A stretch of DNA of 32,515 bases. Origin: a virus. Below, in pieces: positions 5,192 to 24,767 of this stretch. The stretch is from positions 1 through 32,515 of the IMG/VR virus record IMGVR_UViG_3300037487_000685; one strand, written 5' to 3'. The position numbers and the translations under genes are program-made. The notes beneath the pieces are model-generated. The model was not told the DNA's origin and searched no databases. It saw nothing but the letters and a program-made list of their open reading frames with translations. Positions within the stretch are counted from its first letter, which is position 1. Each line of letters begins with the position of its first letter.

Positions 5192-6799
5192 ATGTCCACA
5201 CAAGTGATGAACCGCGAACGACTAATCGGCAACGCCATGACGTTGCGAGATGAGTGGTTGCGTAAGATTGGAATTTTAGACCCTCCTTTGCGGGACATTG
5301 ACAAGGAGTGTGGTTATCCGCCTGGAGACACGATTCCGCTCCAGAACCTTAAAGCAATGTACGACCGAGAGGGTATTGCTAACAGAGTGGTGGGCGTGTA
5401 CCCAGAATCGTGTTGGTCGGTTGATCCTTATGTCTATGAGACGGTACAAGAAGAAGAAACCAAATTTGAAAAGAGACTTGGCCTTATCGTCGAAAAGAAC
5501 CAACTGTGGCATTATCTTCATCGTGTTGATGAATTAAGTGGAATAGGACGGTACGGTGTTCTGCTTTTGGGGATAGACGATGGATCATCCAGTTTGTCTG
5601 AACCTGTTGATGGAATTGATCCCTTGACGGGAGAAGCAAACGAAGGTGAAAAGGAAGAACGCAATCTGCTGTACTTGATGCCATACGACGAATCTTTCGT
5701 TTCCATTTGCGAGTGGGAAAAGGATTGGCGTAGTCCGCGGTACATGAAACCCACCTTATACGAAATCAACATAGCAGACCCAACCATTTGGTCTGGCACT
5801 GGCACGGGAGCTCGCGTATCTAATCCCCCGGATCAAAAGACAGAGAAGGTACATTGGACTCGCATCATTCATGCTGCCGATAACTGCAAGAGCAGTGATA
5901 TATTTGGTGTGCCTCGTCAACAGTCAGTTTATAATCGGCTGTATGACATTCGCAAGATTGCTGGCAGCTCTGCCGAAATGTTCTGGAAAGGTGGCTTTCC
6001 AGGGTATTCGTTTGAGGTTATGCCGAACACGGGCGACATGATGGCGGTTGAGCTTGATCCCGAAGCGATGCGGGAAGAATTTGAGAAGTTCAGCAATAGC
6101 CTTCAACGCTACATGGCTTTGGTTGGGGTGTCTGCTAAATCGTTAGCCCCGCAGGTAGCTGACCCTTCTGCCCATGTCAACGTTCAGTTAATGCTGATTG
6201 CAATCACATTGGGCGTTCCCATGCGTATCTTCATGGGTAGCGAAGAAGGCAAGTTGGCTTCCACCCAAGATAAAGGTAATTGGAATGGTAAAGTCCATTA
6301 CCGGATGGAGAAGTACCTTACTCCTCGATTGGTGCGGCCTACGATTGATCGTTTAATGGCGATTGGTGTTCTGCCCACGGTTGAAAAGTACATCGTACAT
6401 TGGCCTGATCTGAATACCCAAAGTAACATGGAAAAAGCCGAAGTGGCATTGAAGCTCACTGATTCGATGGGTCGGTATATGAGCAGCGGTGCTGATCAAT
6501 TGATGGCTCGCAAAGAGTACCTAACGAAGATCTTCGAGTTTACAACGGAAGAAGCAGACGCCATCATCGAATCGGCAGACGAGCAAGCAGCCGAAGAAGA
6601 AAAGAAGATGCTCGACATGACTGACAAGATGATGAAGAAGGGGCTATTGCCCGAAGGCGGCCCAACACAAATGAAGCCTGATCCACCAAAGATGTTACCT
6701 GGAGGGAAGCCCAAACCGTCTGGAGCTGCCGGTGGCGGCGAACCAAAGAGGACCCCCACTCGTAAGAAGACCATGCCTAATGCAGGAGGCCGTAAGTAA
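5192..6799 (+). CDS. portal protein (DUF1073 / Phage_portal_3 type)
   Basis: 535-residue portal, the ring at the unique capsid vertex through which DNA enters and leaves and to which the terminase and connector dock. Recognised from the Phage_portal_3 pattern: a start region with GIANRVVGVYPESCW, the WTRIIHAADN strand in the middle, and a late block GVPMRIFMGSEEGKLAST followed by KGNWN. The last 70 residues are low complexity, Pro/Gly/Lys-rich, and likely disordered. Length is normal for the family. The ribosome site TAGGAG precedes the ATG. The stop overlaps the next start in TAATG, tying the glycosyltransferase to portal expression. Confidence 0.93.
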   Translation: MSTQVMNRERLIGNAMTLRDEWLRKIGILDPPLRDIDKECGYPPGDTIPLQNLKAMYDREGIANRVVGVYPESCWSVDPYVYETVQEEETKFEKRLGLIVEKNQLWHYLHRVDELSGIGRYGVLLLGIDDGSSSLSEPVDGIDPLTGEANEGEKEERNLLYLMPYDESFVSICEWEKDWRSPRYMKPTLYEINIADPTIWSGTGTGARVSNPPDQKTEKVHWTRIIHAADNCKSSDIFGVPRQQSVYNRLYDIRKIAGSSAEMFWKGGFPGYSFEVMPNTGDMMAVELDPEAMREEFEKFSNSLQRYMALVGVSAKSLAPQVADPSAHVNVQLMLIAITLGVPMRIFMGSEEGKLASTQDKGNWNGKVHYRMEKYLTPRLVRPTIDRLMAIGVLPTVEKYIVHWPDLNTQSNMEKAEVALKLTDSMGRYMSSGADQLMARKEYLTKIFEFTTEEADAIIESADEQAAEEEKKMLDMTDKMMKKGLLPEGGPTQMKPDPPKMLPGGKPKPSGAAGGGEPKRTPTRKKTMPNAGGRK

Positions 6800-7551
6800 T
6801 GCGTCATATTGCTATTATGATTGTAGGTACGAATGCCTACAAAGTTTTAGCGTATCGTTTCATTACCAATTTCATGCACTTTTACACGGGGCATTCAAAG
6901 ATATCCTTTGCTTTGTTTTCTGATGAAGATCCCACTCCTTATGTGGACTATCCAGTTGATTGGTACAAAGCGAATCATTCACATTGGAGAGATGGAACAA
7001 ATAGCAAGTATCAAAATATACTTGATGTACAGAATTATTTGCCGGAGTATACGTACTACTTCGATGCAGATACATACATCAGCCGTTCTTTTGATGCTGA
7101 TTGGTTTATTGGTGATTTGGTAGGAGGTGAACACTACGCAAATCAGACTTCGATGCGAAATAAGAAAGGGTATGAAAGAAACCCGCGTTCGACCTGCTAC
7201 GTCCCATTAGACACAAAGTTGCCGCAAACTTATTACTACGGGGCCTTTTGGGGTGGTAAGACGTATCGTGTGATTGAGATGTGTTTGCTGCTTCTGGAGA
7301 ATCAAAAGAAAGATAAGGAATGGGGGTATGAGCCAGGAGTTAATGATGAAAGCTATCTCAACCAACATTTTCATTATAACCCACCAACAAAAGTGGTTCC
7401 TAGTCAGGATTTCAGATTCGGGATCAGTGACAAGGCCGGTCTCGTGGATATGCGAAACACTGCAAAGAATGTAAAAGAGCTGCTTGGTCAAATAGCAGCC
7501 GTTCGGGGTAAGCCGTTCAACATTAGACAAGAAAAGGTAGTGCTTCTCTAA
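6799..7551 (+). CDS. GT6 family glycosyltransferase (ABO blood-group type)
   Basis: 250-residue soluble retaining glycosyltransferase of CAZy family GT6, which includes the human A/B transferases and adds Gal or GalNAc in alpha-1,3 linkage. Visible landmarks in family order: FDAD with the metal-binding DxD at 89-91; YERNPRS (125-131); YYYGAFWGG (145-153), equivalent to the YYLGGFFGG region of ABO enzymes; NDESYLN (182-188) with E184 matching the catalytic Glu of HDESHLN; and PPTKVVPSQDF (195-205). The vertebrate membrane anchor and stem are absent. It overlaps both portal and MuF genes by one base each, so it is a true member of the head operon. Acceptor is unknown: virion glycoprotein, host glycan and receptor masking are all possible. 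Confidence 0.88.
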   Translation: MRHIAIMIVGTNAYKVLAYRFITNFMHFYTGHSKISFALFSDEDPTPYVDYPVDWYKANHSHWRDGTNSKYQNILDVQNYLPEYTYYFDADTYISRSFDADWFIGDLVGGEHYANQTSMRNKKGYERNPRSTCYVPLDTKLPQTYYYGAFWGGKTYRVIEMCLLLLENQKKDKEWGYEPGVNDESYLNQHFHYNPPTKVVPSQDFRFGISDKAGLVDMRNTAKNVKELLGQIAAVRGKPFNIRQEKVVLL

Positions 7552-8441
7552 TGGCCGAAATCGACCCATCTCGAACAACAACCCTTCGCCGCCAATATGG
7601 AATGGACCTTATTGGTCGTTTTGTCCGAGTTGCCCGCGATTGTCAAGATCTGATTGTTGTTGATGATGCGTTTGGTTTGGGAGAAGAGCGTCTTTCGTTT
7701 AATGTAAAACGAGAGTTTGCTTTCGCCACCAAAGACCAAAAGATGGTTGAGTTCATTAAATGGCTCGACCAACGGATAGCAGAACGGGTGCTTACTGTTT
7801 CTGGTCTAGAATCCAAAGGGATCCCCACATGGCAGGCAAAGTACATTCATGCAGCTTATGCTAAAGGAGTTACCAAAGCGTTCAAGCAGGTCAAGCCACA
7901 GAATTATTTGGTGCCTGATCCTTTCTACCAAGGCCAGCAGGCACAGTTCATAGAAAGCTCCTTCAGTGCCCCTCGAAGCCTCGAGAGTGTTCGCATCTTA
8001 GCCACTAGGGCATTCGAGGAACTCAAAGACATTTCTCGTAGCACTGCTACTCAATTGAACATAATCTTTGCTGAAGGGATGGCAAGTGGTAAAAGTCCTA
8101 AAGCAATAGCTAGAGAGATTACTGATCGTATTTCTACGATCACCAAGACAAGAGCATTGCGGTTGGCCCGAACCGAGATCATCCATGCCCATGCAGAGGG
8201 GCAACTAGATGCGTTTGCCGAGCTAGGGGTTACGACCACCACGGCTCTAGCCGAGTTGCAGACAGCGGGTGATCCTTGTCCTATTTGCTTTGCGTTGTCG
8301 GGACAAGTGTTTACGCTGGCGGAGGCAAGAGGCATTATTCCAGTACATCCTAATTGCCGTTGCATTTGGGTTCCTTACACCAAAGACAAAAAGAAACCAA
8401 GATCTAAAAGAGCGAAAGCTGCTTTAGCTGGTTTACTTTAG
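7551..8441 (+). CDS. MuF / SPP1 gp7-like head morphogenesis protein
   Basis: 296-residue minor head protein, usually inside the capsid near the portal and injected or used in assembly. The C-terminal MuF domain is clear: RLARTEIIHAHAEGQ (204-218), CPIC (243-246) and HPNCRC (266-271), the conserved Cys/His positions of the family. The N-terminal 190 residues are helical and would contact the portal. No toxin domain follows MuF; the protein ends with a short basic tail. The start overlaps the glycosyltransferase stop in TAATG. Confidence 0.92.
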   Translation: MAEIDPSRTTTLRRQYGMDLIGRFVRVARDCQDLIVVDDAFGLGEERLSFNVKREFAFATKDQKMVEFIKWLDQRIAERVLTVSGLESKGIPTWQAKYIHAAYAKGVTKAFKQVKPQNYLVPDPFYQGQQAQFIESSFSAPRSLESVRILATRAFEELKDISRSTATQLNIIFAEGMASGKSPKAIAREITDRISTITKTRALRLARTEIIHAHAEGQLDAFAELGVTTTTALAELQTAGDPCPICFALSGQVFTLAEARGIIPVHPNCRCIWVPYTKDKKKPRSKRAKAALAGLL

Positions 8442-8449
8442 GAGTAACC

Positions 8450-8689
8450 ATGGACATTGATGTTTCCAAAACCACGGATGGAAAGTATATTCGCTTAGTC
8501 TCTAAAGGATTTGAATTGGAATTACCCGTTCAACTAGCTCGTTCTTTAAGAACAGCGTTAGAAGCCGTTTTGTCTGGGCGTCGTCATGGTATTGTAAAAG
8601 CCACCGATGACAAAAAGGGATTTCTAAGAGAAGCAGAAGAACGAACAGCTTCAATATCTCGTCATAATATGGCCCCACCGTCGCAGTAA
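8450..8689 (+). CDS. small protein of unknown function
   Basis: 79 residues with TAGGAG upstream of the ATG. The first half has a compact alternating strand-helix pattern (KYIRLVSKGFELELPVQLARSL); the last 25 residues are charged and likely unstructured. I do not recognise it. It ends within the hairpin that probably terminates this transcript. Confidence 0.65.
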   Translation: MDIDVSKTTDGKYIRLVSKGFELELPVQLARSLRTALEAVLSGRRHGIVKATDDKKGFLREAEERTASISRHNMAPPSQ

Positions 8690-8720
8690 CTCCTTACGAT
8701 ACTGTTACGGTGGCCGTTTT
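8671..8720 (+). terminator. probable terminator hairpin
   Basis: GGCCCCACCG (8671-8680) plus GTAAC (8686-8690) can pair with GTTACGGTGGCC (8704-8715) with small bulges, followed by GTTTT. It overlaps the stop of the gene at 8450. The bulges make it less certain than the other terminators here. Confidence 0.45.
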
Positions 8721-8952
8721 AGGATCGCTTTATCCTTTAGTGGTTTCAAACATGCTAACCACAGAGTCGGTAAGCTATGAGTGCCGGGGGCTATTGGTAA
8801 GCCGCTCCACCTTTCGAGCGTTCCAGTTGTGTGCATTGCACTCCAAGTCAATGCGGAACCCAAACCATTAGAAAGCACAACCTTTTGTTGAATTGGCTTC
8901 TATAGGAATCCGTGCCAGTTCTTTTTGCCGTTCTGTAATCAGGGAGGTTCTC
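8721..8952. other. 232-base non-coding, hairpin-rich gap
   Basis: I find no open frame with a ribosome site here. Short hairpins are visible: AGGAT/ATCCT (8721-8725 with 8732-8736) and GTGGTT/AACCAC (8740-8745 with 8757-8762). It is by far the longest gap in this part of the window and lies directly upstream of the csrA transcript. It could be a structured leader or a small RNA; I see no tRNA features. Confidence 0.4.
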
Positions 8953-9405
8953 ATGAGCATTAGCCTAAGAAAGCTACGAGAATGTGTCACTTGTTCTGTT
9001 GTTGTTGATGGCGAACGGATTAGGGCAAACATTAGAGCAAGGAAAGTTGCCGAAGAATTGATAACAATGATAGACACAATGGTTCAGGCTGATACGCTAA
9101 CAGAAGATCGTCTTTATGAATTGTTAGCCGAAGAGTTTGCAGCTAGAGTAGCACAACGACTTGTGCCCGATGGATCAAACGTCACCACAATGACGTTAGA
9201 ACATGCCGTTGCTTTTGAGGAGACCCGATTGCCATTTGGTACGTATGAAGGCGATACAGTGCGGAATGTATCGAATGATGATCCCGATGAGCTATTCCTC
9301 TTGCACGATAACCTTTGGCGTCGTACATTAGGAAGATACATCAGAAGTAATCATTTTCGCAGTAAGCTCAAAATGATTGCAACTTCGTTCCACAAGGAGG
9401 CATAG
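8953..9405 (+). CDS. DUF3820 / ExoX C-terminal-like protein
   Basis: 150 residues from ATG 8953, chosen over the TTG at 8893 because AGGGAGG lies 5 bases upstream. The C-terminal half has the pattern of the small DUF3820 domain also found at the end of exonuclease X-like proteins: LPFGTYEGDTV (93-103), then an Asp-rich turn, then an aromatic helix with WRRTLGRYIRS. The N-terminal half is helical and unrecognised. No exonuclease active-site DEDD residues are visible, so it is not a full nuclease. It ends at the base before the csrA start codon. Confidence 0.7.
   Translation: MSISLRKLRECVTCSVVVDGERIRANIRARKVAEELITMIDTMVQADTLTEDRLYELLAEEFAARVAQRLVPDGSNVTTMTLEHAVAFEETRLPFGTYEGDTVRNVSNDDPDELFLLHDNLWRRTLGRYIRSNHFRSKLKMIATSFHKEA
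9392..9398 (+). promoter_or_regulatory. CsrA-binding consensus over the csrA ribosome site
   Basis: ACAAGGA, the core of the known CsrA RNA consensus (ACARGGA), overlaps the Shine-Dalgarno AAGGAGG of the csrA gene. Bound CsrA would block its own translation, as in known CsrA autoregulation. The match is seen; the regulation is inferred. Confidence 0.5.
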
Positions 9406-9573
9406 ATGCTGGTATTGTCAAGGAAGATCAAAGAGGCGATTTGCATTTCGGATAACATTGTTGTTCGTATCCTTTCGGTGCGGGGCGATAATGTTCGGAT
9501 AGGGATTGATGCTCCTAAGGAAGTAAAAGTTCTGCGAGAAGAACTAACGGCAAAAGCTGATGAATTAGACTAA
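9406..9573 (+). CDS. csrA: carbon storage regulator CsrA
   Basis: 55-residue CsrA, a dimeric RNA-binding protein that binds GGA motifs in hairpin loops and leaders and usually blocks ribosome binding. I translated it directly: it begins MLVLSRKIKEAICI, continues with NVRIGIDAPKEVKV and ends LREELTAKADELD. RNA-contact residues L4, R6 and the Arg of LREE (R44) match the family; the usual His before that Arg is Leu. Length is close to the normal 55-65. It follows the gene at 8953 with no gap and is closed by a strong terminator. A regulator of mRNA translation inside a phage structural region could time late gene expression or reprogram host metabolism. Confidence 0.93.
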   Translation: MLVLSRKIKEAICISDNIVVRILSVRGDNVRIGIDAPKEVKVLREELTAKADELD

Positions 9574-9592
9574 TATCTTTATAACACACTTC

Positions 9593-9632
9593 AACCTACC
9601 ATTCGTTTACGCGGGTGGTAGGTTTATTTTTT
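9593..9632 (+). terminator. strong intrinsic terminator after csrA
   Basis: A 13-pair stem, AACCTACCATTCG (9593-9605) with CGGGTGGTAGGTT (9612-9624) including two G-T wobbles, has a six-base loop and is followed by TATTTTTT. It closes the csrA transcript. Confidence 0.85.
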
Positions 9633-9641
9633 GACTTAGGG

Positions 9642-9670
9642 TTGACATTCTCGAACTGCCCCATTATGGT
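9642..9670 (+). promoter_or_regulatory. strong sigma70-type promoter of the exported-protein cassette
   Basis: Perfect TTGACA (9642-9647), a 17-base spacer and TATGGT (9665-9670). It begins ten bases after the csrA terminator and 42 bases before the next ATG, so the following cassette has its own transcript start. Confidence 0.7.
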
Positions 9671-9711
9671 TGGGCGGCTTTTAGCCACCGTCCATAAAAG
9701 GAGTAGTCGTC

Positions 9712-10248
9712 ATGCCCGTTCGAGAACGAAGAATTTTTGGTTCGAGAGGCTCTGTTTTTACGGTATTGAAAGGATTGTTTTCCTTGGCGGGGTACACGGG
9801 TGATATTATGGCCCTGATTCCTTTGCTAGGAAAATGGAGGGCAGTCGAAGATCCTTGGAATTCGGTCGAAGGAATCAAGGCTCGTTTGTTCGTATTGATC
9901 GAAGCTGCCGAGTTGGTTGTAGACAATACGGAAACAACGGCTGATGATGAAGCTGTTGCTGAATTCAAGAAATTCGTCAATGACGGTACTTTTATCAAGT
10001 ACATTGCTGACTTCTTCGCCAGCAACCCCAACGCCACGGTAGAGCAGTTGTTTGCTGCAATGGACTCAGGTCCTGATGCCGTTCGCCTAGAAGCTGTAGC
10101 AAGTGAACAGCAAATCACTTGGAGCAAGATTCAACAAGCTATTAAGCTCTTGCTTGCTCTGTTGGCTTTGTTCCGCGATGAAGCTGCTTCGCCAGCCGCG
10201 TCTACTACCACTGGCGATCCAGTGCAAACCACATTTCCTTCTTTTTAG
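9712..10248 (+). CDS. protein of unknown function, first gene of the cassette
   Basis: 178 residues with AAGGAG before the ATG. There is a basic N-terminus, a moderately hydrophobic stretch at about 16-40 and another helix near 141-154 (IKLLLALLALFRD), with acidic helices between. The tail is Ser/Thr/Pro-rich. No clear signal peptide. It stands between a promoter and a terminator, which suggests independent, possibly high, expression. No family recognised. Confidence 0.7.
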   Translation: MPVRERRIFGSRGSVFTVLKGLFSLAGYTGDIMALIPLLGKWRAVEDPWNSVEGIKARLFVLIEAAELVVDNTETTADDEAVAEFKKFVNDGTFIKYIADFFASNPNATVEQLFAAMDSGPDAVRLEAVASEQQITWSKIQQAIKLLLALLALFRDEAASPAASTTTGDPVQTTFPSF

Positions 10249-10787: not shown

Positions 10788-11609
10788 ATGTTTGACTTCG
10801 GTAAATTTGGTGAGAAGTTTGGCTATACGGATGATTCCGTAGGTATTGCCGACGCCCAACGAGATTGGGACATCCCACAAACGGGAGTTCTTGACCCTGC
10901 CACTGTTACCGTTCTTACTCGCATTCCTCGCTGTGGTATGTCGGATGCCCAGCCTCTAGGTGGAACGCAAGATAAGTGGGGACTAAAAGAAGTTAGCTAC
11001 ATCATTGCCGGATACCCAACAGGATTGGGTTTAACAAAGAAACAGATAGAAGAAGCCATTGCAATTTGCTATGCAAGTTGGTCTAATGTCTGCGGGCTGC
11101 GGTTTGTCCGTGTTGGCAGCAAGACCGAGGCAAATATAGTAATGGATGTGGGTCGTGGCTCGAGAGCGGGCTTCGATGGGCCTAGCGGGGTGCTTGCGTG
11201 GTGCGAGATACCGCAAGGCTCCAATTTTCGCGGACAGATCAATTTGATGTGGGATATGGATGAGGCATGGACTACATCTAGTTCTCAAAATGGAATTCTT
11301 TTGATAAACACCACAGCACATGAAATTGGACATGGTCTGGGTTTGTATCATACAAAGGTGAGCAAGCAATTGCTGAATCCTGTTTACAATCCAAAGATTG
11401 CATCTCCTCAAGCTGCTTATGATGTAGCAGAGGTGGTTGATCGGTATGGTGCCCCCTTGGCTCCTATTCCGCCGAACCCAACCACTCCGGGTGCAAGCGA
11501 TGTTAAAGCAATTAAGATTTTGTTGAAAGATGGTCGAGTTCTTGGTGCCGATAAGTTTGTGAACTTGACTAATGCTCAACAAGAAGAAGGTGTGTTTCAG
11601 TCGTTCTAG
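10788..11609 (+). CDS. matrixin-type zinc metalloprotease with cysteine switch
   Basis: 273-residue M10A-like (matrixin) protease. Residues about 12-46 resemble the peptidoglycan-binding-like prodomain (GVLDPATVTVL), followed by PRCGMSD (47-53), the cysteine switch in which C49 would cap the zinc and keep the enzyme latent. The catalytic core has FDGPSGVLAW (129-138) and HEIGHGLGLYH (178-188), with zinc ligands H178, H182, H188 and base E179. The Met-turn residue is replaced: L196 stands where Met is expected, eight residues after H188. No classical signal peptide is seen. A C-terminal Pro-rich linker leads to a short extra domain. The ribosome site is AAGGAGG. It could serve entry, lysis or envelope processing. 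Confidence 0.88.
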   Translation: MFDFGKFGEKFGYTDDSVGIADAQRDWDIPQTGVLDPATVTVLTRIPRCGMSDAQPLGGTQDKWGLKEVSYIIAGYPTGLGLTKKQIEEAIAICYASWSNVCGLRFVRVGSKTEANIVMDVGRGSRAGFDGPSGVLAWCEIPQGSNFRGQINLMWDMDEAWTTSSSQNGILLINTTAHEIGHGLGLYHTKVSKQLLNPVYNPKIASPQAAYDVAEVVDRYGAPLAPIPPNPTTPGASDVKAIKILLKDGRVLGADKFVNLTNAQQEEGVFQSF

Positions 11610-11635
11610 CCGTTTTGGCTAACATCAAGGTTATC

Positions 11636-13189
11636 ATGAACACCGTGATGCTGGCAGTTTTGTTCGTAGCCGTTGGAGGGCCTCTTTCGGGAGACGCTCT
11701 CGATCTGTATGAACCTACTGTCAGGACAATGGTTAGCATTGTAAAAGAACAGGTGGCTCGAGAAGCAGAAGCAACGAAGACGCTTCGCCTCGAAGACCTG
11801 TCACCACCACGAAAGATCGAAAGAAAAACCAAAGAACCAAAACTGATTCCGAAAGTAATCGAGCCATCTCCAGAAGCTGTGAAAGTGAGGGATACCAATG
11901 CTAAGTTCACACAAAGCCAAATCACTGTACAGCATTGGAATGACTATGCTAAGAGGGACCCGTTCGTTCGCTACCTTACTTTGGAGCATGTGGATCCAGC
12001 TTATCGAGCCAATTGGATCAACGCCATTCGATTCGCAATCCCCTCAGCGTCGAGAGCTCGAGAACTCGATCATCAAATACCCCGACAACTCTTAGGTACT
12101 TTGTCCTTTTACATAGACTTAAAGCATTTGGGTTGGGACCCCATTGATTTGAATAAAGTTCTTGAAAAATACCCGTATGCTGATAACGATCCTAACAAGC
12201 CAATTTTAACGATCCGCGGAGACTGGTTATTGCACGAACTAGCCGACGCTCGGAATTCGGACACCTTGTATCGTTTGATGTATGGGGAAAAGAACATACC
12301 CAAGACCGACGAAGACTTTCTAAAGTTTTGGGGGGTTGATAAAACACAACAAGATGGGCAATGGTATGGGTGGATAGAAAGAGACTCACAAGTGAACAAA
12401 AGCGGTGTTCGTTTTCTTGAGCATTTCAATGGCCGTGGTTTTTCTGTTTGGAGAACAAAAGACGCCAGAAAAGTGACTAATAAAACAGATCCGCTAACGA
12501 CACTAGATGGGGAGTTTACCCATGATGGTCGAGAACTTATCGCTCAATTTCCAAAGACATCGGTTCGTGGACGTTCCCGAGGAGCAGCACAAGCCTACTT
12601 ACTCGCTAACGCAGAAGGGAAAAGAGTCGAGGAAGCTCCTGTCGATCTTGTTGAAGACCACAAACGGACTTTTGATGCCGCGATTGTAAACACGGCATCG
12701 TGTACAGTATGCCATGACAAAGGAATGCAACTGCCTTCCTCGAATGCAGTAGAAGATGTTGTGTTGCGAGGAATGACGATAAATGCCCTTGGCAAAGAGA
12801 AGCAAGTCTTTATTGAGGACTTCCATTTGTCAGATGTGCGGATGCAGTTAGATCGTGATATTGAAAACTATGCGATCTTTGTCATGGCGTGCAATGGATT
12901 AGCAACGGAGGAAAATGCAAAGAATTATAAGTTGTGTTTGGATTTGTTTAATCGTAAGGTTTCTTTAACCGATGCGGCACGTGAGCTAGGGGTTAAAGAC
13001 GAAGAGTTGCGGTTGGCGATTGGATACGCCTCTGCAAACAAGATCAATTTAGGGAATCGTTTGTTGTCGCTTGCCTACGGTGATAGTATTCATCGGGACC
13101 AGTGGGAAGACGACTTCGAGCGGGCATACCAGATCGTCCGAATATGGAAAAAAGGACGACAGGCACCAAAAGGAGGAGACTCAAAATGA
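11636..13189 (+). CDS. exported protein with c-type heme motif (CxxCH)
   Basis: 517 residues from ATG 11636; the TTG at 11615 would add seven residues and hide the leader. The first 20 residues look like a Sec signal (hydrophobic, ending in small residues). A Lys/Pro/Glu-rich linker follows to about residue 90. The only heme motif is CTVCH (C356, C359, H360), where cytochrome c maturation would attach heme in the periplasm. The preceding stretch (QAYLLANAEGKRVEEAPVDL, about 319-338) resembles secreted planctomycete c-type proteins by memory. M363 or a later Met may be the second ligand. The end overlaps the next gene in ATGA, so the two heme-motif proteins are translationally coupled. Confidence 0.75.
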   Translation: MNTVMLAVLFVAVGGPLSGDALDLYEPTVRTMVSIVKEQVAREAEATKTLRLEDLSPPRKIERKTKEPKLIPKVIEPSPEAVKVRDTNAKFTQSQITVQHWNDYAKRDPFVRYLTLEHVDPAYRANWINAIRFAIPSASRARELDHQIPRQLLGTLSFYIDLKHLGWDPIDLNKVLEKYPYADNDPNKPILTIRGDWLLHELADARNSDTLYRLMYGEKNIPKTDEDFLKFWGVDKTQQDGQWYGWIERDSQVNKSGVRFLEHFNGRGFSVWRTKDARKVTNKTDPLTTLDGEFTHDGRELIAQFPKTSVRGRSRGAAQAYLLANAEGKRVEEAPVDLVEDHKRTFDAAIVNTASCTVCHDKGMQLPSSNAVEDVVLRGMTINALGKEKQVFIEDFHLSDVRMQLDRDIENYAIFVMACNGLATEENAKNYKLCLDLFNRKVSLTDAARELGVKDEELRLAIGYASANKINLGNRLLSLAYGDSIHRDQWEDDFERAYQIVRIWKKGRQAPKGGDSK

Positions 13190-13755
13190 CCTGGTTTAGT
13201 GTTTTGTTGTCAGCTCTGGTCTTGCTGACGCCCTTTCATGTTTTGCTAGCCGCCGTCTGCGGCAATCAGAGAATTGTGCATCAGCAACAAGTAGTTCAAA
13301 ATCAACAAGTGTTTACTCAATATGTTGCTCGACCTGTAGTCTTGCAACAAGTCAATCCTTACGCTTACTACAGTGCTGGAGCTTTCCTCCAAGAGGAATC
13401 TGTTAGTAACCGACTTGCTACGCAAGTGGAAGCTATGGTTCAAGAACGATTAAAGGAAGCATTGCAAAAGCTGAACTTGCCTGCTCCAGCAGGTGCAAAT
13501 CAGCCACAAACTTCTTTGGGACTACAAACGCTCCAACAGAAGTGTGCAAAGTGTCACACTGATCGAAGTAAGCAAGTAATGGACAATGATGCACCGGCTT
13601 TATTCGACGAGCGGAATCAATGGGTGGGAACGCCTGCACAAGCCGCGTCCTCGAAAGCATTGGCTAAAAGGGGTGCAATGCCCCCGCCGCCCGGCGAACC
13701 GTTGACAGACGATGAGTACCTAGCTGTTGCCCAATGGCTCGATACTGTTAAATAA
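13186..13755 (+). CDS. small exported c-type cytochrome
   Basis: 189 residues from ATG 13186, preceded by AGGAGGAG and overlapping the upstream stop. There is a Sec signal (1 to about 22), then a Gln/Val-rich segment (HQQQVVQNQQVF) like the lipoprotein encoded next, an amphipathic helix, and a cytochrome c domain from about 110. The heme motif is CAKCH (C120, C123, H124); AMPPPPGEPLTDDEY follows with M165 as the likely distal ligand, then a closing helix ending AQWLD. This is the standard order for a class I cytochrome c. It should act outside the inner membrane as an electron carrier or redox partner of the upstream protein. Confidence 0.85.
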   Translation: MTWFSVLLSALVLLTPFHVLLAAVCGNQRIVHQQQVVQNQQVFTQYVARPVVLQQVNPYAYYSAGAFLQEESVSNRLATQVEAMVQERLKEALQKLNLPAPAGANQPQTSLGLQTLQQKCAKCHTDRSKQVMDNDAPALFDERNQWVGTPAQAASSKALAKRGAMPPPPGEPLTDDEYLAVAQWLDTVK

Positions 13756-13785: not shown

Positions 13786-14175
13786 ATGAGAGGATTGATG
13801 TGTGTTTTGATGGTGGCTTGTGCTGTGATCGTTGGTTGTGGTCCCGAAGTAAAAGGATGTGATACTTTTGGTCAACAGCAAATGTTTCAGCAACAGGTAT
13901 ACGCTCAACAAGTGTTTCAGCCTGTGATTGAACAAGTTTATGCGATGCCTGTTATTCAGCAACAGGTATATGCTCAGCCTTTTGTTCAGCAGCAAGTCTA
14001 TGCAGCTCCAGTTGTCCAACGACAAGTGGTGAAGCAACGAGTTGTTCAGCAAAATGTGATTGTGCGACAACCTGTTATTCAACAGCAAGTTGTGGTCCAA
14101 AAAGTTCGTGCCCCGCGAGTACAACGACAAGTGACGCGGTCCTCTACTGTTATTAGAGGCGGCGGTTTGTTTTAA
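13786..14175 (+). CDS. Gln/Val-repeat lipoprotein
   Basis: 129 residues from ATG 13786 with AAAGGAG upstream. The leader ends in a lipobox IVGC (15-18), so C18 is probably acylated and the protein anchored in a membrane. The mature part is built of short repeats of the type QQQVYAQ or QQQVVVQ from about 30 to 116, with no charged core and a basic tail. Such low-complexity Gln/Val repeats are familiar in planctomycete secreted proteins (from memory). It could form a fibrous or adhesive layer. The similar segment in the cytochrome encoded just before suggests they interact or share origin. Confidence 0.75.
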   Translation: MRGLMCVLMVACAVIVGCGPEVKGCDTFGQQQMFQQQVYAQQVFQPVIEQVYAMPVIQQQVYAQPFVQQQVYAAPVVQRQVVKQRVVQQNVIVRQPVIQQQVVVQKVRAPRVQRQVTRSSTVIRGGGLF

Positions 14176-14204: not shown

Positions 14205-14246
14205 CCTTCTAGGGTTGGCAAGGATTGTTGACCCTAGAAGGTTTTT
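14205..14246 (+). terminator. intrinsic terminator
   Basis: CCTTCTAGGGT (14205-14215) pairs perfectly with ACCCTAGAAGG (14231-14241), 11 pairs extendable by wobbles, followed by five T. It follows the lipoprotein gene. Confidence 0.8.
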
Positions 14247-14265
14247 CATTTCAAAGGAGTGTGTC

Positions 14266-15324
14266 ATGCGTTTTGCCGTTTGCAGTCTTATTGTTGCTGC
14301 TTGTCTTGTTTCTACCATTGCGACGTTTGCATCATCTCCGGTTGTTCCACCGACCCCACCAGCTCCGGCTGATGCGTCGTCAGGCCAATTCGTTTTGCCT
14401 TCGGGACCAATGACGACATTCCCATCATGGGACATCGAAATCTTCCGCGAGTATGAACCGCTGATGCAGTACCGCTCGAAGGACCGCAGCATGGAAGGTC
14501 TGGGTTCTTTCCTTCGCAAGCTGATCGAATCCAAAGTCCAAGCGGGCGACACGGTGCGACTAAAAGGATACTTCATCTTAGGCGAAAAGTATCCTTTGCA
14601 ATTGCCGAACATTACCCTCTGCGGGTTCGGTTCCTATGCAACAACGGTTCATACCGCCTGTAGAATCGACAAGACCGACTACAAGCCTCTCGGGACGCCG
14701 GGCATTCTGCTCGCCACCAATAATCGGTTTGAAGACATTGAACTAATTGGTGAGTGTCACGACCCCAACGAAGACGGTGGTCTAGTAGGTTGGAACACGC
14801 CCGGCAAAGCATTCGTTGAGTTCCTTCGCTGTCGCCTTAATGGCAAGAACAGAAACGACTGGTTGATCTATAGTTGGATACAAGGACCCAAAACACTTAT
14901 CTTCACACAATGCGATCTATTCTTTGCCCGCCAAGGAATCGCTATGTGTGGTAGTAGTGACATTACCCATGACGTTACTGTCAATGATTGCCGTTTCTAC
15001 GGCGATGCCAATGGCTCGAAGAGTATGGGTGCTTCCAGTCTAAATGATATCGACAAGGGTGGCGTCCTTGCGGGTATTGTTCTTCGTGGCGGATCTCTTA
15101 CCGTCAATGGTGCCGAGTTTTGGTTGGTTGGTTTGACTGCACCTTATGACCCGACTGGCAAGTGGGGCTGTCCGCGGATGGCAGCCATTACAGACCATTA
15201 CTATACTCCTGGCAGAATAGATTCAAAGTTTGTTCTTAAGAACATACGGTTCCATGCGACTCCTAACACTACCACAGTGGTAGAAGTATTTGACATCAGA
15301 GCTGTCAAACCAACAATGAATTAA
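14266..15324 (+). CDS. secreted beta-helix-like protein
   Basis: 352 residues from ATG 14266, with AAAGGAG about 8 bases upstream. There is a Sec signal (1 to about 22), a Pro-rich linker, and then many short strands with turns and Asn/Cys/Gly ladders (for example RLKGYFILGEKYPLQLPN and VTVNDCRFYG), the look of a right-handed parallel beta helix such as pectate-lyase-like or tailspike proteins. No catalytic residues can be assigned. The signal peptide argues for a host-surface or periplasmic protein rather than a virion tailspike. It ends the exported set. Confidence 0.65.
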   Translation: MRFAVCSLIVAACLVSTIATFASSPVVPPTPPAPADASSGQFVLPSGPMTTFPSWDIEIFREYEPLMQYRSKDRSMEGLGSFLRKLIESKVQAGDTVRLKGYFILGEKYPLQLPNITLCGFGSYATTVHTACRIDKTDYKPLGTPGILLATNNRFEDIELIGECHDPNEDGGLVGWNTPGKAFVEFLRCRLNGKNRNDWLIYSWIQGPKTLIFTQCDLFFARQGIAMCGSSDITHDVTVNDCRFYGDANGSKSMGASSLNDIDKGGVLAGIVLRGGSLTVNGAEFWLVGLTAPYDPTGKWGCPRMAAITDHYYTPGRIDSKFVLKNIRFHATPNTTTVVEVFDIRAVKPTMN

Positions 15325-15704: not shown

Positions 15705-15722
15705 GTACCCTGTCAGTATTGT
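15694..15722 (+). promoter_or_regulatory. sigma70-type promoter of the head protease operon
   Basis: Perfect TTGACA (15694-15699), a 17-base spacer and TATTGT (15717-15722, four of six), 30 bases before ATG 15752. It marks the right edge of the inserted cassette and would restart capsid gene transcription. Confidence 0.5.
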
Positions 15723-15751
15723 GGTTCGGTTATATAAAGGAGGTGTACCTA

Positions 15752-17236
15752 ATGCCGTTGCAAACAATCATTGCAAATGCAAGCGGAGTTTCGAGGCGGG
15801 AGACGATGGCGGGCAAGGACTATCTTGTCGTCCCCATGATAATCCTGACCGAAGGGGTTCATGGCGGTAGCGGTGGGGCTCTTTACTACCCTCCCGAAGA
15901 ACTTCGCAAAACCCCTGTAATCTGGAATCACAAACCGATTGTCGTTTACCACCCAGAACGTGGAGGTGCTCCTGTATCAGCTTGCGATCCTGAGGTTATT
16001 TCAAACCGTGGGATTGGAATGATGATGAATACGGAGTACAAACGATCCAAAGGGCCGGATGGGAAGATGATTGGCAAAGTCCATTCCGAGGCTTGGCTTG
16101 ATCCTGATCGGGTAGAACAAGTGGACATTCGCATTCTCGAGGCTATCGAGTCTGACGAAATGATGGAACTGTCCACGGGTTTGTTTACCGACAACGAAAG
16201 GATCAAGGGTAACTGGAACGGAGAGGAGTATAAGTCAATTGCTCGAAACTACCGTCCAGATCATTTGGCTATTCTGCCTGACCAAGTTGGTGCTTGTTCT
16301 TTGGCAGATGGTGCTGGTTTGTTGCGTGTGAATGTATCAATTCATTCAGCCGAATCACAAGAAGCTATTTCAAAAGCATTGTTTGCTTTGAACATGACTT
16401 CTTCTTTTAACACAAACGAAAAGTCATTCTCCACGATTACAAGCGAATTGTGGACGTTACTTGGGACTATCGAAAAAGACGCTTATGTAGTTGACGTGTT
16501 CGACGATTTCTTCATATACTCGAAGAACAACCTTTTGTACATGATGAGTTATGAAGAAGATGGAGATACTGCTTTGGTTGGGTCACCTGCTGAAATTAAG
16601 CGAGTGACAGAGTATAGAACTGCCGACGGAACCATTTTGGGGAATGCGGCGATCACCACTATTACTAACGAGGAGAAGAACATGGGCAAGCAAGAACTTG
16701 TCGATGGGTTGATCGCCAACGCGGCGGTTGCCTTTGAAGAAGCAGATCGGACGATGTTGATGGGCTTCGATGAAGCAAAGTTGGCGAAGTTCAGCATTGC
16801 CCCTGTTGCTCCGGCTGCTGGTGCATCCGATCCGGCAGCGATTGCTAATGCGGTGGCTGAGGGTGCTGCTGGTGTAGCTCCTGTTGCTGCGATTACGCAA
16901 CCCGCTGCGGTTGTCGAAAAGCAGTTGACCGATGAAGAGTACATCGCCAAGGCCCCTCCGGGCATCCGCGAGTCTCTGCAATCGCTTAAAGCACAAAACG
17001 ATGCCGCAAAGACTGCTGTTTGTGAACGTATCTTGGCGAATACCCAAAACACGTTTACCAAAGAGTATCTGGCAAGCCGCAAGCTTGAAGAGCTGAATGG
17101 CATTGCTGCTTTGATGCACGAACCAAAAATTGCTCCGACCGCGAATTATCGTGGACAGGCGGGTGCTCCTCCAAACACCAATGGAAAGAAGCAAGCCGCT
17201 CTCACACTCCCGAAGAGTGAAGTTGTAGTGCAATAG
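15752..17236 (+). CDS. prohead protease (DUF2213) fused to scaffold domain
   Basis: 494 residues from ATG 15752, chosen over the upstream TTG because AAAGGAGG is 8 or so bases before it. The N-terminal 190 residues match the DUF2213 phage protease pattern: KDYLVVPMIILTEGVH, then WNHKPIVVYHP (H is a likely catalytic residue), ELSTGLF (Ser likely nucleophile) and PDHLAILPDQVGACSLADGA. It matures the capsid by cutting scaffold and itself. Residues about 200-305 form a further domain; from about 311 an Ala/Pro-rich helical region looks like an internal scaffold. Protease-scaffold fusion with a nested scaffold is the lambda C/Nu3 arrangement. Confidence 0.88.
   Translation: MPLQTIIANASGVSRRETMAGKDYLVVPMIILTEGVHGGSGGALYYPPEELRKTPVIWNHKPIVVYHPERGGAPVSACDPEVISNRGIGMMMNTEYKRSKGPDGKMIGKVHSEAWLDPDRVEQVDIRILEAIESDEMMELSTGLFTDNERIKGNWNGEEYKSIARNYRPDHLAILPDQVGACSLADGAGLLRVNVSIHSAESQEAISKALFALNMTSSFNTNEKSFSTITSELWTLLGTIEKDAYVVDVFDDFFIYSKNNLLYMMSYEEDGDTALVGSPAEIKRVTEYRTADGTILGNAAITTITNEEKNMGKQELVDGLIANAAVAFEEADRTMLMGFDEAKLAKFSIAPVAPAAGASDPAAIANAVAEGAAGVAPVAAITQPAAVVEKQLTDEEYIAKAPPGIRESLQSLKAQNDAAKTAVCERILANTQNTFTKEYLASRKLEELNGIAALMHEPKIAPTANYRGQAGAPPNTNGKKQAALTLPKSEVVVQ
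16682..17236 (+). CDS. nested scaffold protein from internal start
   Basis: ATG 16682 lies in the protease frame with GAGGAG six bases upstream, a better ribosome site than chance would give. The product (184 residues, starting MGKQELVDGLIANAAVAFEE) is helical, Ala/Gln/Glu-rich, with a low-complexity middle, fitting a scaffold that fills the prohead before DNA. Independent translation gives more scaffold than protease. Inferred from sequence and from the lambda precedent. Confidence 0.6.
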   Translation: MGKQELVDGLIANAAVAFEEADRTMLMGFDEAKLAKFSIAPVAPAAGASDPAAIANAVAEGAAGVAPVAAITQPAAVVEKQLTDEEYIAKAPPGIRESLQSLKAQNDAAKTAVCERILANTQNTFTKEYLASRKLEELNGIAALMHEPKIAPTANYRGQAGAPPNTNGKKQAALTLPKSEVVVQ

Positions 17237-18207: not shown

Positions 18208-18243
18208 AACAGGACCTGCTTTTTATTGAAAAGGATAATTGCA

Positions 18244-19308
18244 ATGGCAATTGACTTGGTTGGAAACATGCAGGGTCCTGGCGATTTCGCTCAGGTTCTG
18301 CTTAATAGTCGGGGTGATTTAAGTTGCCTGCGTCCTTATAAAGGGGACGACGACCGCTCTTACATCACCGTAAACGATGAGGGTGGTGAACCCGTTGCTC
18401 AACTAACGGCAAACGACAATGCCGTCCTTCGCTACGATGAGTGGAAGCTTATCGACGAAGCGGTAATGAAGAACGCTCGCTTGCCTATGCGGTTTGTGAG
18501 TGATCTTCGTTCGTCTGGTTTGTCCTACAACATTCCGAATGGAATGTCGCATACGATGCTCCAATGGCAGCGTATGGGTGAAGGTGGACGTGCCCAGATT
18601 AACATGAACCCAGCGGTTCAGGTTGAATCTGATCGTGTGATCTTCGATATGCTGTCTCTGCCCCTCCCGATTATTCATTCGGGTTGGAGCTTCGACATTC
18701 GTGATATTATGACGAGCCGCAACAAGGGCTTGGGTATTGATGTCACAATGGCTGAACAATGTGCTCACAAATGTGCCGAAGAAGCCGAACGGCTTGCTCT
18801 TGGTACGTATGGGACGTATGCGTTCGGTGGCAGTACGATCTATGGTCTCACCAACTGGCCGTCCCGCCAGACGAAGGTGCTGACTGCCCCAACCGCCAGT
18901 GGTTGGACCCCGGTTGTTCTGGTTCGTGAACTGTTGTCGATGATCCAAATGGCCCAAGACGAGTTGTTCTATGGTCCATACAAGATGTACTGCTCGCCCG
19001 CTTGGACGCAGTACATGGATGATGACTTCAGCGAAGCGAAGGGAAGCAATACACTTCGCCAGCGGATTGGGCAGATTGATTCGCTCAGTGCCCCGACGAC
19101 GCTTCATTACCTTGATGGTTTCCAGATTGTGCTGGTTCATCAGGCTTCGTCGCTGATTCGGGAAGTTGTGGGCATGGACTGGACGACAGTTCAATGGTCC
19201 TCGATGGGCGGTATGCTCCAGCACTTCATGGTGATGGGCATGTTCGTTCCTCAGCTTCGCGTGGCGATGGACGGATACTCCGGTATCGTCCATGGTGCGA
19301 CGGTTTAG
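18244..19308 (+). CDS. major capsid protein (encapsulin-like, HK97 fold)
   Basis: 354 residues from ATG 18244 (AAAGGA upstream). The pattern is that of encapsulin/linocin-like major capsid proteins: a helical N-terminal arm, then WKLIDEAVMKNARLPMRFVSD, a loop with SGLSYNIPNG, a long strand with QVESDRVIFDMLSLPLPIIH, and GTYGTYAFGGSTIYGLTNWP before the A-domain strands. Length fits HK97-fold subunits. It assembles the icosahedral shell around the scaffold. A strong terminator follows immediately, as expected for the most abundant product. Confidence 0.92.
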   Translation: MAIDLVGNMQGPGDFAQVLLNSRGDLSCLRPYKGDDDRSYITVNDEGGEPVAQLTANDNAVLRYDEWKLIDEAVMKNARLPMRFVSDLRSSGLSYNIPNGMSHTMLQWQRMGEGGRAQINMNPAVQVESDRVIFDMLSLPLPIIHSGWSFDIRDIMTSRNKGLGIDVTMAEQCAHKCAEEAERLALGTYGTYAFGGSTIYGLTNWPSRQTKVLTAPTASGWTPVVLVRELLSMIQMAQDELFYGPYKMYCSPAWTQYMDDDFSEAKGSNTLRQRIGQIDSLSAPTTLHYLDGFQIVLVHQASSLIREVVGMDWTTVQWSSMGGMLQHFMVMGMFVPQLRVAMDGYSGIVHGATV

Positions 19309-22121: not shown

Positions 22122-24767
22122 ATGGCTCTTGCATTTCCTTTTGTTGATGGGGACGCTCTACAGGCAGATATCTTGGCTGCTGCTGCTGATGCATCTGTTT
22201 GGAAGCCAGGAAATGCCAGTCGTCAAATGACAACAGAACTGTCTACCCCTCAACACACAAAGTTGGTTGGGGGTCAAGTCAATGTAGATCCTCGTCGCAT
22301 ACCCATCATTTGCACGGCTAAAGCTGGTTATGCATCTAATGTCTTTGGTTTGGGGACTGGCTACGATTTCAATGGGTTCCCTGTAGCAATGACAGACGAA
22401 GATGGAACAATTCATGTATTTTTAGCACACTCCGCAAACCATGCAGGCGTTGAAACAGTAACAGCTCATTTTTCTTCTACCGATTATGGGAACACATGGA
22501 CACCCGTGGGTATCGTTACGGTTCCTGGTGTAAATGGGGCTGTTATCTATCCGGAGTTGTTGTACCGCATTCAAAATGGAATTTATGCTGGGCGTATTAT
22601 TCTAGTTCATCGTTTTTCTGTCGAAACCCCATCTAATTCATACGCATCGTATAGCGATGATGAAATGGTAACGTGGTCTGCTTCGGTTAGTTGTACGGAT
22701 TTGGTAGCTCCTATGGTTTCGGGCAATGCTGGAGCAGCCATTACTGATTTGGCCGATGGTACTATCGTCATTTCCAATTATAGCCGAGCCGTGTCTACAT
22801 ACTACATTACATCTTTTCGACAATCAACAGATGGTGGAGTTACGTGGACGCAACGATGTGTTATTGAAAATGGAGTGGGTCCTGGCGAGAAACCAGAAGA
22901 ACCGGGTTTGTGTTTGATGGCTAATGGAGAATGGTTAATTTCCGTTCGAGAAGATAACACGGGAACGATTCGGACGTACTACTCAAACGATGATCTTTTG
23001 ACGGTAAACACGATTGCTGGGTCAACCGCTGGTGCCGTCCGTGGTATTGGGCGTCCGTCGTTGTATTCGTTTGAAAACGGCGTTGTGGTTATGTTTACGC
23101 GGTATGTAGCCGCTGACACTTTTCTTGGGATTGCGGCAGGAGCTCCTGTTTTCTACACCAGTGGTGACTATGGTCGCACTTGGAGTGCCCCACGTATTCT
23201 TCATAATCATACTGGTTATATGTCTTACGGTGCATTCTTTCGTGCCGCTGACAATGTGGTTGGTCTGGTGTACTCAGTTGCAGCAGATGTTGGAAGTGGA
23301 TCGCTTGCCGATGATGAATACAAGTTGTGTGATACTTTTGTCACCTACTTGTCGAGTGGCGATGCTGTCACTCCTTTTGGCTCTCGTTTGGGTGGTGTCA
23401 TTCAGAATCCAATAGTAAAGGATCGTCTCGGTTTGTCCATCGCTGCTGTAAGGAAAGCCGAGTCAAATGATGCGACGGTTTTGCAAACTCGATTGAATGC
23501 GTTGACTGAGTATATGATCAAAGCTGGCATCATGCCTCGCCACCCATTAGACATTAGTTCTATTACTGGATTGTGGGAAGCCGATAACATTGCTCAAGCA
23601 GATATGGATTGGTTGGGCACGTTCGCCAGTGTCACGTCTCTTGCCCGCAGTAGCGGCGAGACTGTGGCAGGCACAACCGATGGCGGAGCAACATGGGCTG
23701 TGGGTGCTGGTAAGCTCTCTCATAGTGCCGCCAGTGGCAACAATACGTTTTGGTGGGAAGTAGGTCGATTCAATGGGGTATTAACTGCTAAAGTAACTTG
23801 GCGGAATGATGGGCAGGTTGGTATTTTGTTTCGCTTTGGAACAGGACCTGATTGCTATAAGGTTGGTGCAGATGGTTCTAATATCCGGTTGTATAAGACC
23901 GATAATAATGCAGACACTACACTTGTGACAGGAACAGGAGTTCTTGTTAATGGGGTGGAAGCTACCTTTGTGATTACTTACGTGGGTGCTAGTATCACCG
24001 TTACCCTTGATGGGGCAGCTTGTATTAGTCACACACTTAGCGGAGGTGACCTTGCGGCTATCCTGGGTACTGGTATTGGAGTTAAAACTGCTTCGCTTAC
24101 TGCTACTTACGATGACATTCGATCACATCTAGACTTAGCAGTGGATCAGCCTATGGGCTATGTAGCCGATCAGTCAACTGGTGCGGCTCATATGACGCAG
24201 GCCACTTCTAATCTGCAACCTTTGTATGGTTTGACTAATGGACTGTTTGGCGACAAGCCCTATTTGCGATGGACTGCATCAACGATCAAACGACTTGCCT
24301 CTACTGTCTTTGCTTCTCAAGCTCAGCCGAATGCTGTGGTGTTCGTTGGGTTCTTCGGTGTTACTACCGGAGCCCAGATGAATTTCATTACTAGCAACAA
24401 CGAATCAGGCAACACCCAGAACATAGGATTAACATCCGCAGGCAAATTCCAAGTAAACGCTGGCACGCCTCGAGATGTGGGACCGACAACGAACGTGTGG
24501 CCGATTGGACCAGTAATCATCACAGTCCGATTTAACACTACCGATACCATTGTTCGCTTCAATGGTCGAGAAGTTTATCGATCAACTGCATCGACAACGA
24601 TTGGAACTTCGCCACTTACTCAATTGACGTGGGGCGATGGTATTAATGTCACTGATATGTCATCGCCTGCTATGGCTTTGTTTGCTACAGGCTCGCCAAC
24701 AGAAGCCGAACTGATCGACGTAGAAAAATACTTTGCCGACAAATACAACATTCGCATTGAACGCTAA
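22122..24767 (+). CDS. sialidase-like tail fibre with LamG-type C-terminus
   Basis: 881 residues. The N-terminal half is a BNR/sialidase-type beta propeller with Asp boxes at about 118-126 (SSTDYGNTW), 177-185 (variant), 235-242 (STDGGVTW) and 347-354 (SGDYGRTW). The catalytic Arg/Asp/Tyr set cannot be assigned with confidence, so it may bind or cleave glycans. From about 460 come GLWEADNIAQADMDW, a concanavalin-like sandwich (about 520-670) and a second LamG-like sandwich (about 680-870) as in receptor-binding fibres. No signal peptide. Likely virion receptor-binding protein or depolymerase. Confidence 0.8.
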   Translation: MALAFPFVDGDALQADILAAAADASVWKPGNASRQMTTELSTPQHTKLVGGQVNVDPRRIPIICTAKAGYASNVFGLGTGYDFNGFPVAMTDEDGTIHVFLAHSANHAGVETVTAHFSSTDYGNTWTPVGIVTVPGVNGAVIYPELLYRIQNGIYAGRIILVHRFSVETPSNSYASYSDDEMVTWSASVSCTDLVAPMVSGNAGAAITDLADGTIVISNYSRAVSTYYITSFRQSTDGGVTWTQRCVIENGVGPGEKPEEPGLCLMANGEWLISVREDNTGTIRTYYSNDDLLTVNTIAGSTAGAVRGIGRPSLYSFENGVVVMFTRYVAADTFLGIAAGAPVFYTSGDYGRTWSAPRILHNHTGYMSYGAFFRAADNVVGLVYSVAADVGSGSLADDEYKLCDTFVTYLSSGDAVTPFGSRLGGVIQNPIVKDRLGLSIAAVRKAESNDATVLQTRLNALTEYMIKAGIMPRHPLDISSITGLWEADNIAQADMDWLGTFASVTSLARSSGETVAGTTDGGATWAVGAGKLSHSAASGNNTFWWEVGRFNGVLTAKVTWRNDGQVGILFRFGTGPDCYKVGADGSNIRLYKTDNNADTTLVTGTGVLVNGVEATFVITYVGASITVTLDGAACISHTLSGGDLAAILGTGIGVKTASLTATYDDIRSHLDLAVDQPMGYVADQSTGAAHMTQATSNLQPLYGLTNGLFGDKPYLRWTASTIKRLASTVFASQAQPNAVVFVGFFGVTTGAQMNFITSNNESGNTQNIGLTSAGKFQVNAGTPRDVGPTTNVWPIGPVIITVRFNTTDTIVRFNGREVYRSTASTTIGTSPLTQLTWGDGINVTDMSSPAMALFATGSPTEAELIDVEKYFADKYNIRIER

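Follow-up and report, generated by a model that had tools for sequence, protein, structure and literature searches.

The phage genome analyzed in this study was found to encode, in two consecutive genes hereafter called LARGE and SMALL, a pair of putative exported c-type heme proteins which, as judged from sequence, does not reflect a chance motif but is a genuine viral redox module, and an old one. We propose that the two proteins constitute an exported electron-transfer unit in the host envelope, to which control of a protease may be added as a tentative further step, and we estimate the probability of this explanation as a whole at about 0.5. The analyzed DNA (hereafter the window), an IMG/VR virus record taken in full (32,515 bases), contains the pair and its sequence elements at the following positions.

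11636..13189 (+): LARGE, predicted exported mono-heme c-type protein, 517 aa from the ATG at 11636
12701-12715 (+): CTVCH, predicted heme-attachment motif of LARGE, C356/C359/H360 counted from ATG 11636, invariant in 19/19
13172..13176 (+): GGAGG, strong Shine-Dalgarno sequence of SMALL, within the end of LARGE
13186..13189 (+): ATGA overlap of the SMALL start with the LARGE stop
13186..13755 (+): SMALL, predicted exported class I cytochrome c, 189 aa, assigned by PF13442, PF00034 and the structural model
13543-13557 (+): CAKCH, predicted heme-attachment motif of SMALL, C120/C123/H124, invariant in 16/16 viral relatives
13678-13680 (+): M165, predicted distal heme ligand of SMALL, Met-Pro invariant in 16/16

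The initial annotation had described two exported proteins, each with one CxxCH and coupled through the ATGA overlap. The open reading frames, the overlap and the motif residues were indeed as it had described them, with exactly one CxxCH in each protein. An in-frame TTG at 11615 is a possible alternative start of LARGE, yielding 524 aa. Both window proteins have an N-terminal hydrophobic stretch with few positive charges before it, and on the basis of this hydrophobic N-terminus both were predicted to be exported.

By its profile matches, SMALL is a new member of the class I cytochromes c. It consists of a signal helix, a Gln/Val-rich linker, a further helix and a C-terminal cytochrome c domain (residues about 107-189), and was matched by PF13442 Cytochrome_CBB3 (3.1e-7; 31.1 bits versus a cut-off of 27) and PF00034 Cytochrom_C (4.6e-4; 21.9 versus 21.3). 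Cytochrome_CBB3 was matched by all 16 viral SMALL homologues at an E value of 0.01 or better; the cut-off of PSCyt1 (PF07635) was not reached by SMALL, with only three of the 16 members matching (best 7e-4) and no match for the window protein. Eight SMALL proteins, once aligned, proved too divergent to yield a pattern for scanning. The 16 homologues are 17-26% identical to the window SMALL, and the columns invariant among them are M1, P58, C120, C123, H124, M165 and P166; the predicted heme ligands are what SMALL keeps across these divergent proteins. The class I cytochrome c order with M165 as the likely distal ligand, as originally suggested, was thus borne out by Pfam scores above cut-off and by the invariance of both CxxCH and Met-Pro. 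Structure prediction gave a mixed picture of the fold of SMALL: the C-terminal domain was well modelled (pLDDT about 77-93) with helices as expected, and the best Foldseek neighbours were cytochromes c (TMt 0.52), but the whole-chain E value was about 1, probably because half of the chain is linker. Like the known class I cytochromes c (PF13442/PF00034, e.g., SorU), SMALL is helical and has an early CxxCH with the distal Met about 40 residues on; it differs from them in being phage-encoded, in its Gln/Val/Pro-rich linker and in being always paired with LARGE.

LARGE defines an undescribed and widespread family of predicted heme proteins that has neither a curated model nor a solved fold. An N-terminal hydrophobic signal and a low-complexity stretch extending to about residue 100 are followed by one globular domain. 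The CxxCH of this domain, whose loss in homologues had been named beforehand as a refuting result, was kept in all 19 aligned relatives, phage and bacterial alike, together with Y120, W204, S258, R266, D283, D304, E307, P313, Q326, G370 and R494 (524-aa numbering). Among these 19 relatives there was no second invariant His, Met or Lys outside the CxxCH, which suggests that the putative heme of LARGE has an open distal side. The window LARGE subfamily and the remaining LARGE proteins matched each other by profile at 8e-42.

No Pfam match was obtained for the window LARGE, nor was there any meaningful NCBIfam or PHROGs match, the single PHROGs hit being at chance level; in PHROGs, neither LARGE nor SMALL belongs to a family. 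The LARGE model was of good quality (pLDDT 81.7, pTM 0.83), and Foldseek searches with it against the PDB and BFVD returned no match; since it has no known fold relative, the activity of LARGE is guesswork. Three candidate identities were rejected, namely cytochrome P460 or cytochrome c'-beta (no P460 Pfam match in any member and no Foldseek match), di-heme cytochrome c peroxidase or MauG (one CxxCH only and no Pfam match), and the cbb3 oxidase subunit II FixO/CcoO (best E of 0.0068 with NCBIfam and 0.14 with Pfam, in few members and not in the window).

In composition-preserving shuffles, CxxCH arose by chance in 0.03% of cases for LARGE and 0.045% for SMALL. According to the alignments, conservation is far stronger evidence against a chance motif than these frequencies, and a chance origin was ruled out by it. 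In the non-saturated comparisons, dN/dS was 0.08-0.12 for LARGE and 0.11-0.23 for SMALL, indicating purifying selection on the pair. That the exported phage pair carries real, conserved c-type heme motifs is thus virtually certain, and both proteins very probably carry heme c.

The pair was found in the same order in 17 further viral records (18 with the window), including phages of 254-595 kb. These comprise the 595-kb phage LR756511.1 and 16 IMG/VR records, two of which share a sample of origin and do not differ in this region; the counts correspond to at least 16 further records among 2.9 million IMG/VR contigs and to one of 50,697 GenBank phage records, in keeping with the earlier statement that c-type cytochromes are very rare in phages, but such genes have a phage precedent in soxD (PMC8190135). 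Single-sequence scans of viral and genome contigs gave no matches, and alignment-based queries were needed. Where measured, the distance between LARGE and SMALL was -19 to +78 bases in 17 of the 18 records, and in one it was 777 bases. SMALL was never found without LARGE, as the SMALL scan returned only contigs already holding LARGE.

In a tree of LARGE, all phage copies fell on one side of a branch with support of 94/97 and the bacterial copies on the opposite side, with long internal branches; this tree has no established root, its bacterial sampling is small, and the placement of L065, on a very long branch, is unsure. The nesting within host homologues expected of a recently host-derived auxiliary metabolic gene was not seen at this branch, with the root and the bacterial sampling as just stated. 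The split and the long internal branches therefore point to an old viral family and not a recent capture.

The window carries a tailed-phage structural gene set, and a block containing, among others, a matrixin gene, LARGE, SMALL, a Gln/Val-rich lipoprotein gene and a gene for an exported protein sits among its head genes, as listed below.

1343-2824: large terminase (TerL)
5192-6799: portal
7551-8441: minor head protein
10788..11609 (+): matrixin (M10) metalloprotease, directly upstream of LARGE in the same cassette (PF00413, 1.3e-23)
13786..14175 (+): Gln/Val-rich predicted lipoprotein with lipobox VIVGC, directly downstream of SMALL
14215-15324: exported protein, part of the matrixin/LARGE/SMALL block
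15719-17236: prohead-protease-like protein
18226-19308: capsid-type protein

TerL was present in the window and in nine further pair-bearing viral records, and misassignment of a bacterial contig was ruled out for these ten by TerL and structural genes. Their terminases are of at least three kinds (that of the window, a huge-phage kind and GpA), and a Terminase_6N match was also seen; since the pair is accompanied by differing terminases, the module crosses unrelated phage groups. Another virus-labelled record, L063 (IMGVR_UViG_2740892559), was set aside as a viral member and is probably cellular DNA in IMG/VR, because its LARGE-type protein is fused and groups with bacteria; in this record the fused bacterial-type protein is followed by leucine-rich repeats.

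Planctomycetota are the likely host group, the host of the window being predicted from several lines of sequence comparison. The planctomycete-specific domain TIGR03000 occurs inside the LARGE of two phages at 2e-15 (L033, 9713-11668; L034, 9812-11851), the bacterial relatives of LARGE are almost all from Planctomycetota, and a few Planctomycetota genomes encode relatives of the window TerL, with identities of 30-40% and none above 40%.

The homologue searches envisaged for viral and planctomycete sets recovered, besides the 17 viral records, a bacterial counterpart in the form of a single protein, whose PSCyt1/CBB3 cytochrome c domain precedes the LARGE domain. Encountered in 3 of the 149 Planctomycetota species sampled, this fusion is rare; it occurs in Planctomycetota genomes and on a Neorhizobium plasmid. 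SMALL matched its N-terminal domain by profile at 1.6e-11, which shows the same fold family and not closest kinship, as any two class I cytochromes may match. Whereas the PSCyt1 (PF07635) type of domain known from Planctomycetota is thus fused N-terminally to the bacterial LARGE homologue, SMALL has a gene of its own, downstream of LARGE. Since phages encode the two as separate proteins and bacteria as one, they very likely work together; the simplest reading of the fusion would be electron transfer between the two hemes, and in view of the fusion and the constant pairing SMALL and LARGE probably form one electron-transfer unit.

The surroundings of the fusion were characterized by caspases. 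Sequence search placed a gene for a C14 caspase, in many cases carrying WD40 repeats or an FGE-sulfatase domain, near the fusion in 8/10 loci; by Pfam at 1e-5, one lay within 8 kb of it in 5/9 loci, in four genomes with only 1-6 caspases each. Random placement would give 0.09 caspase-adjacent loci (p about 8e-9, with paralogues within one genome not being independent). The bacterial operon (L024, L066, L071, L074-L078) was observed to consist of a caspase, often a WD40-caspase or FGE-sulfatase-caspase, the PSCyt1::LARGE fusion and an exported protein, conserved and about 400 aa long, that no Pfam family matched. The bacterial homologue of the pair thus lies in clusters of the kind described as bacterial caspase (metacaspase) operons (PMC3501461), whereas in phage loci no caspase was found beside the pair. 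PADLOC gave no match for the fusion heme protein and only one for its neighbour, to a caspase model at 3e-6.

Proteases of other kinds were frequent beside the phage pair. The window matrixin aligned with pro-MMP-9, its best PDB match, at 2.9e-23 over residues 23-218, from prodomain to catalytic domain. As in matrix metalloproteinases, it has an MMP-like prodomain with the cysteine switch PRCGMSD (C49, 10932-10934) and the zinc site HEIGHGLGLYH; it differs from them in being phage-encoded and in that neither an obvious signal peptide nor a hemopexin domain was seen; with no obvious signal peptide, it may reside in a different compartment from the heme proteins. A matrixin adjoins the pair in the window, L050 and L051, the cysteine switch of L050 being PRCGFPD. 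In most other records a papain-like protease lies beside the pair, intact-looking with Q, C, H and NSW motifs. Neither gene was found beside the pair in 6 of the 18 viral records, one of which has a papain-like gene elsewhere. In L064, a papain-like protease gene (7941-9983, +) is broken at the catalytic cysteine by an apparent intein.

Other neighbours were conserved as well. An exported Ig-like protein without a Pfam match lies upstream of LARGE in 12 viral loci (L002, 4836-5612, and 11 others) and possibly has a thioredoxin-like C-terminus devoid of CxxC. Exported QV-rich proteins similar to the window lipoprotein follow the pair in L050 and L051, and the lipoprotein would belong to the module by its position. 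The protease/heme block is preceded by short proteins with hydrophobic or amphipathic helices (window 9712-10248; L051, before the matrixin; L002, 6430-6906); they are possibly holin-like, and the block as a whole may therefore be a cassette for lysis or for the envelope.

Maturation of c-type cytochromes needs host export and covalent heme attachment. Given this dependence on the host and the purifying selection that keeps two predicted cytochromes, the phage must gain from electron transfer in the envelope. In the proposed mechanism, the host would export LARGE and SMALL, and its cytochrome maturation system would attach one heme to each. SMALL, predicted to be His/Met ligated, would serve as a mobile electron carrier, and LARGE, with a heme side that is probably open, as the working end that reduces or oxidizes a substrate; late in infection, the exported pair would thereby transfer electrons in the host envelope as a two-heme unit. 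For cysteine-switch matrixins, as for papain-like proteases and caspases, activity hinges on the state of a cysteine. Because the partner genes so often encode such thiol-dependent proteases, we further suggest, with less certainty, that the redox unit may act as a switch for an envelope protease late in infection of a planctomycete host, turning it on or off through the thiol state that the unit sets; action of the pair on a protease or its thiol, to which the neighbours point, is a tentative and somewhat unlikely step. A bolder reading, which we hold to be unlikely, is that bacteria, chiefly Planctomycetota, possess a heme-controlled caspase-linked envelope system, of which phages would carry an old, split version of the heme part, using it either to leave the cell by way of a redox-gated protease of their own (pro-matrixin or papain-like) or to disarm the host system. 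If true, a circuit of cytochrome c and protease would exist on both sides of infection.

Several other roles were weighed against the proposed unit. As a respiratory auxiliary, SMALL would carry electrons between host complexes, or from LARGE to a host oxidase, upholding the proton-motive force during infection. This role would suit a class I cytochrome c, three LARGE members bear a faint local likeness to the cbb3 oxidase subunit II (best E 0.0068), and phages of sulfur oxidizers carry soxD (PMC8190135). However, no respiratory or oxidase gene was seen beside the pair in phage loci, the neighbours of the bacterial fusion are caspases and not respiratory operons, and LARGE matched no oxidase family, making this role improbable. 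Of the two functions offered in the initial annotation, a secreted redox complex is accordingly favoured, the two domains being one polypeptide in bacteria, while support of host respiration, though possible, received no specific backing. The pair might instead counter a host defence: as a viral version, split in two, of the caspase system's heme component, it would bind or short-circuit that system and so stop a suicidal response to infection. The fusion does lie beside caspase genes, often WD40-caspases, far above chance, and the phage copies lack an adjacent caspase, are split and form their own group; nevertheless, nothing observed marks the bacterial operon as a defence system, PADLOC has no match for the heme protein, the fusion is rare among the sampled Planctomycetota, and several phages hold the pair among late and structural genes rather than early ones, so that we regard such a function as quite improbable.

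Detoxification, in which LARGE would be a peroxidase-type or nitric-oxide-handling enzyme fed by SMALL and protecting the infected cell or the progeny, is decidedly unlikely. Bacterial cytochrome c peroxidases combine a cytochrome c with an open-sided heme domain, a layout that the pair resembles in so far as LARGE has no second invariant axial ligand and its heme side is apparently open, but LARGE has one CxxCH, no peroxidase family match and no fold match. Highly unlikely is a pair without heme, whose CxxCH motifs would be relics or metal or disulfide sites in envelope proteins for lysis or surface structures: heme in the pair is a prediction from sequence, and viral soxD copies that have lost the motif are on record (PMC8190135), yet both CxxCH motifs and the distal Met of SMALL are invariant over a very deep divergence in which most other positions have changed.

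Among known phage genes, the closest parallel to the proposed electron-transfer unit is the c-type cytochrome soxD, a redox auxiliary metabolic gene likewise encoded on phage genomes, in which the motif is sometimes lost (PMC8190135). SoxD comes from a known host pathway, whereas the present pair is old in phages, has invariant motifs and includes a partner without a known fold. In the open-access literature, to which the search extended, no published description of the pair or of the bacterial operon was found. Prokaryotic caspase operons were surveyed in 2012 with no mention of a cytochrome (PMC3501461), and a word search of two later papers devoted to conflict and death systems in bacteria (PMC7159879, PMC8195603) met no description of this cytochrome operon in the text it covered. 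The bacterial fusion and its caspase neighbours offer leads on the substrate of the heme unit and on a link between cytochrome c and caspase-type proteases in bacteria.

Elsewhere in the window, a glycosyltransferase family 6 gene (PF03414, 5e-13; 6799-7551, +) lies directly 3' of the portal gene, and an 881-aa protein with BNR/sialidase-type repeats (PF13088, 2.3e-15; 22122-24767, +) is encoded in the tail region.
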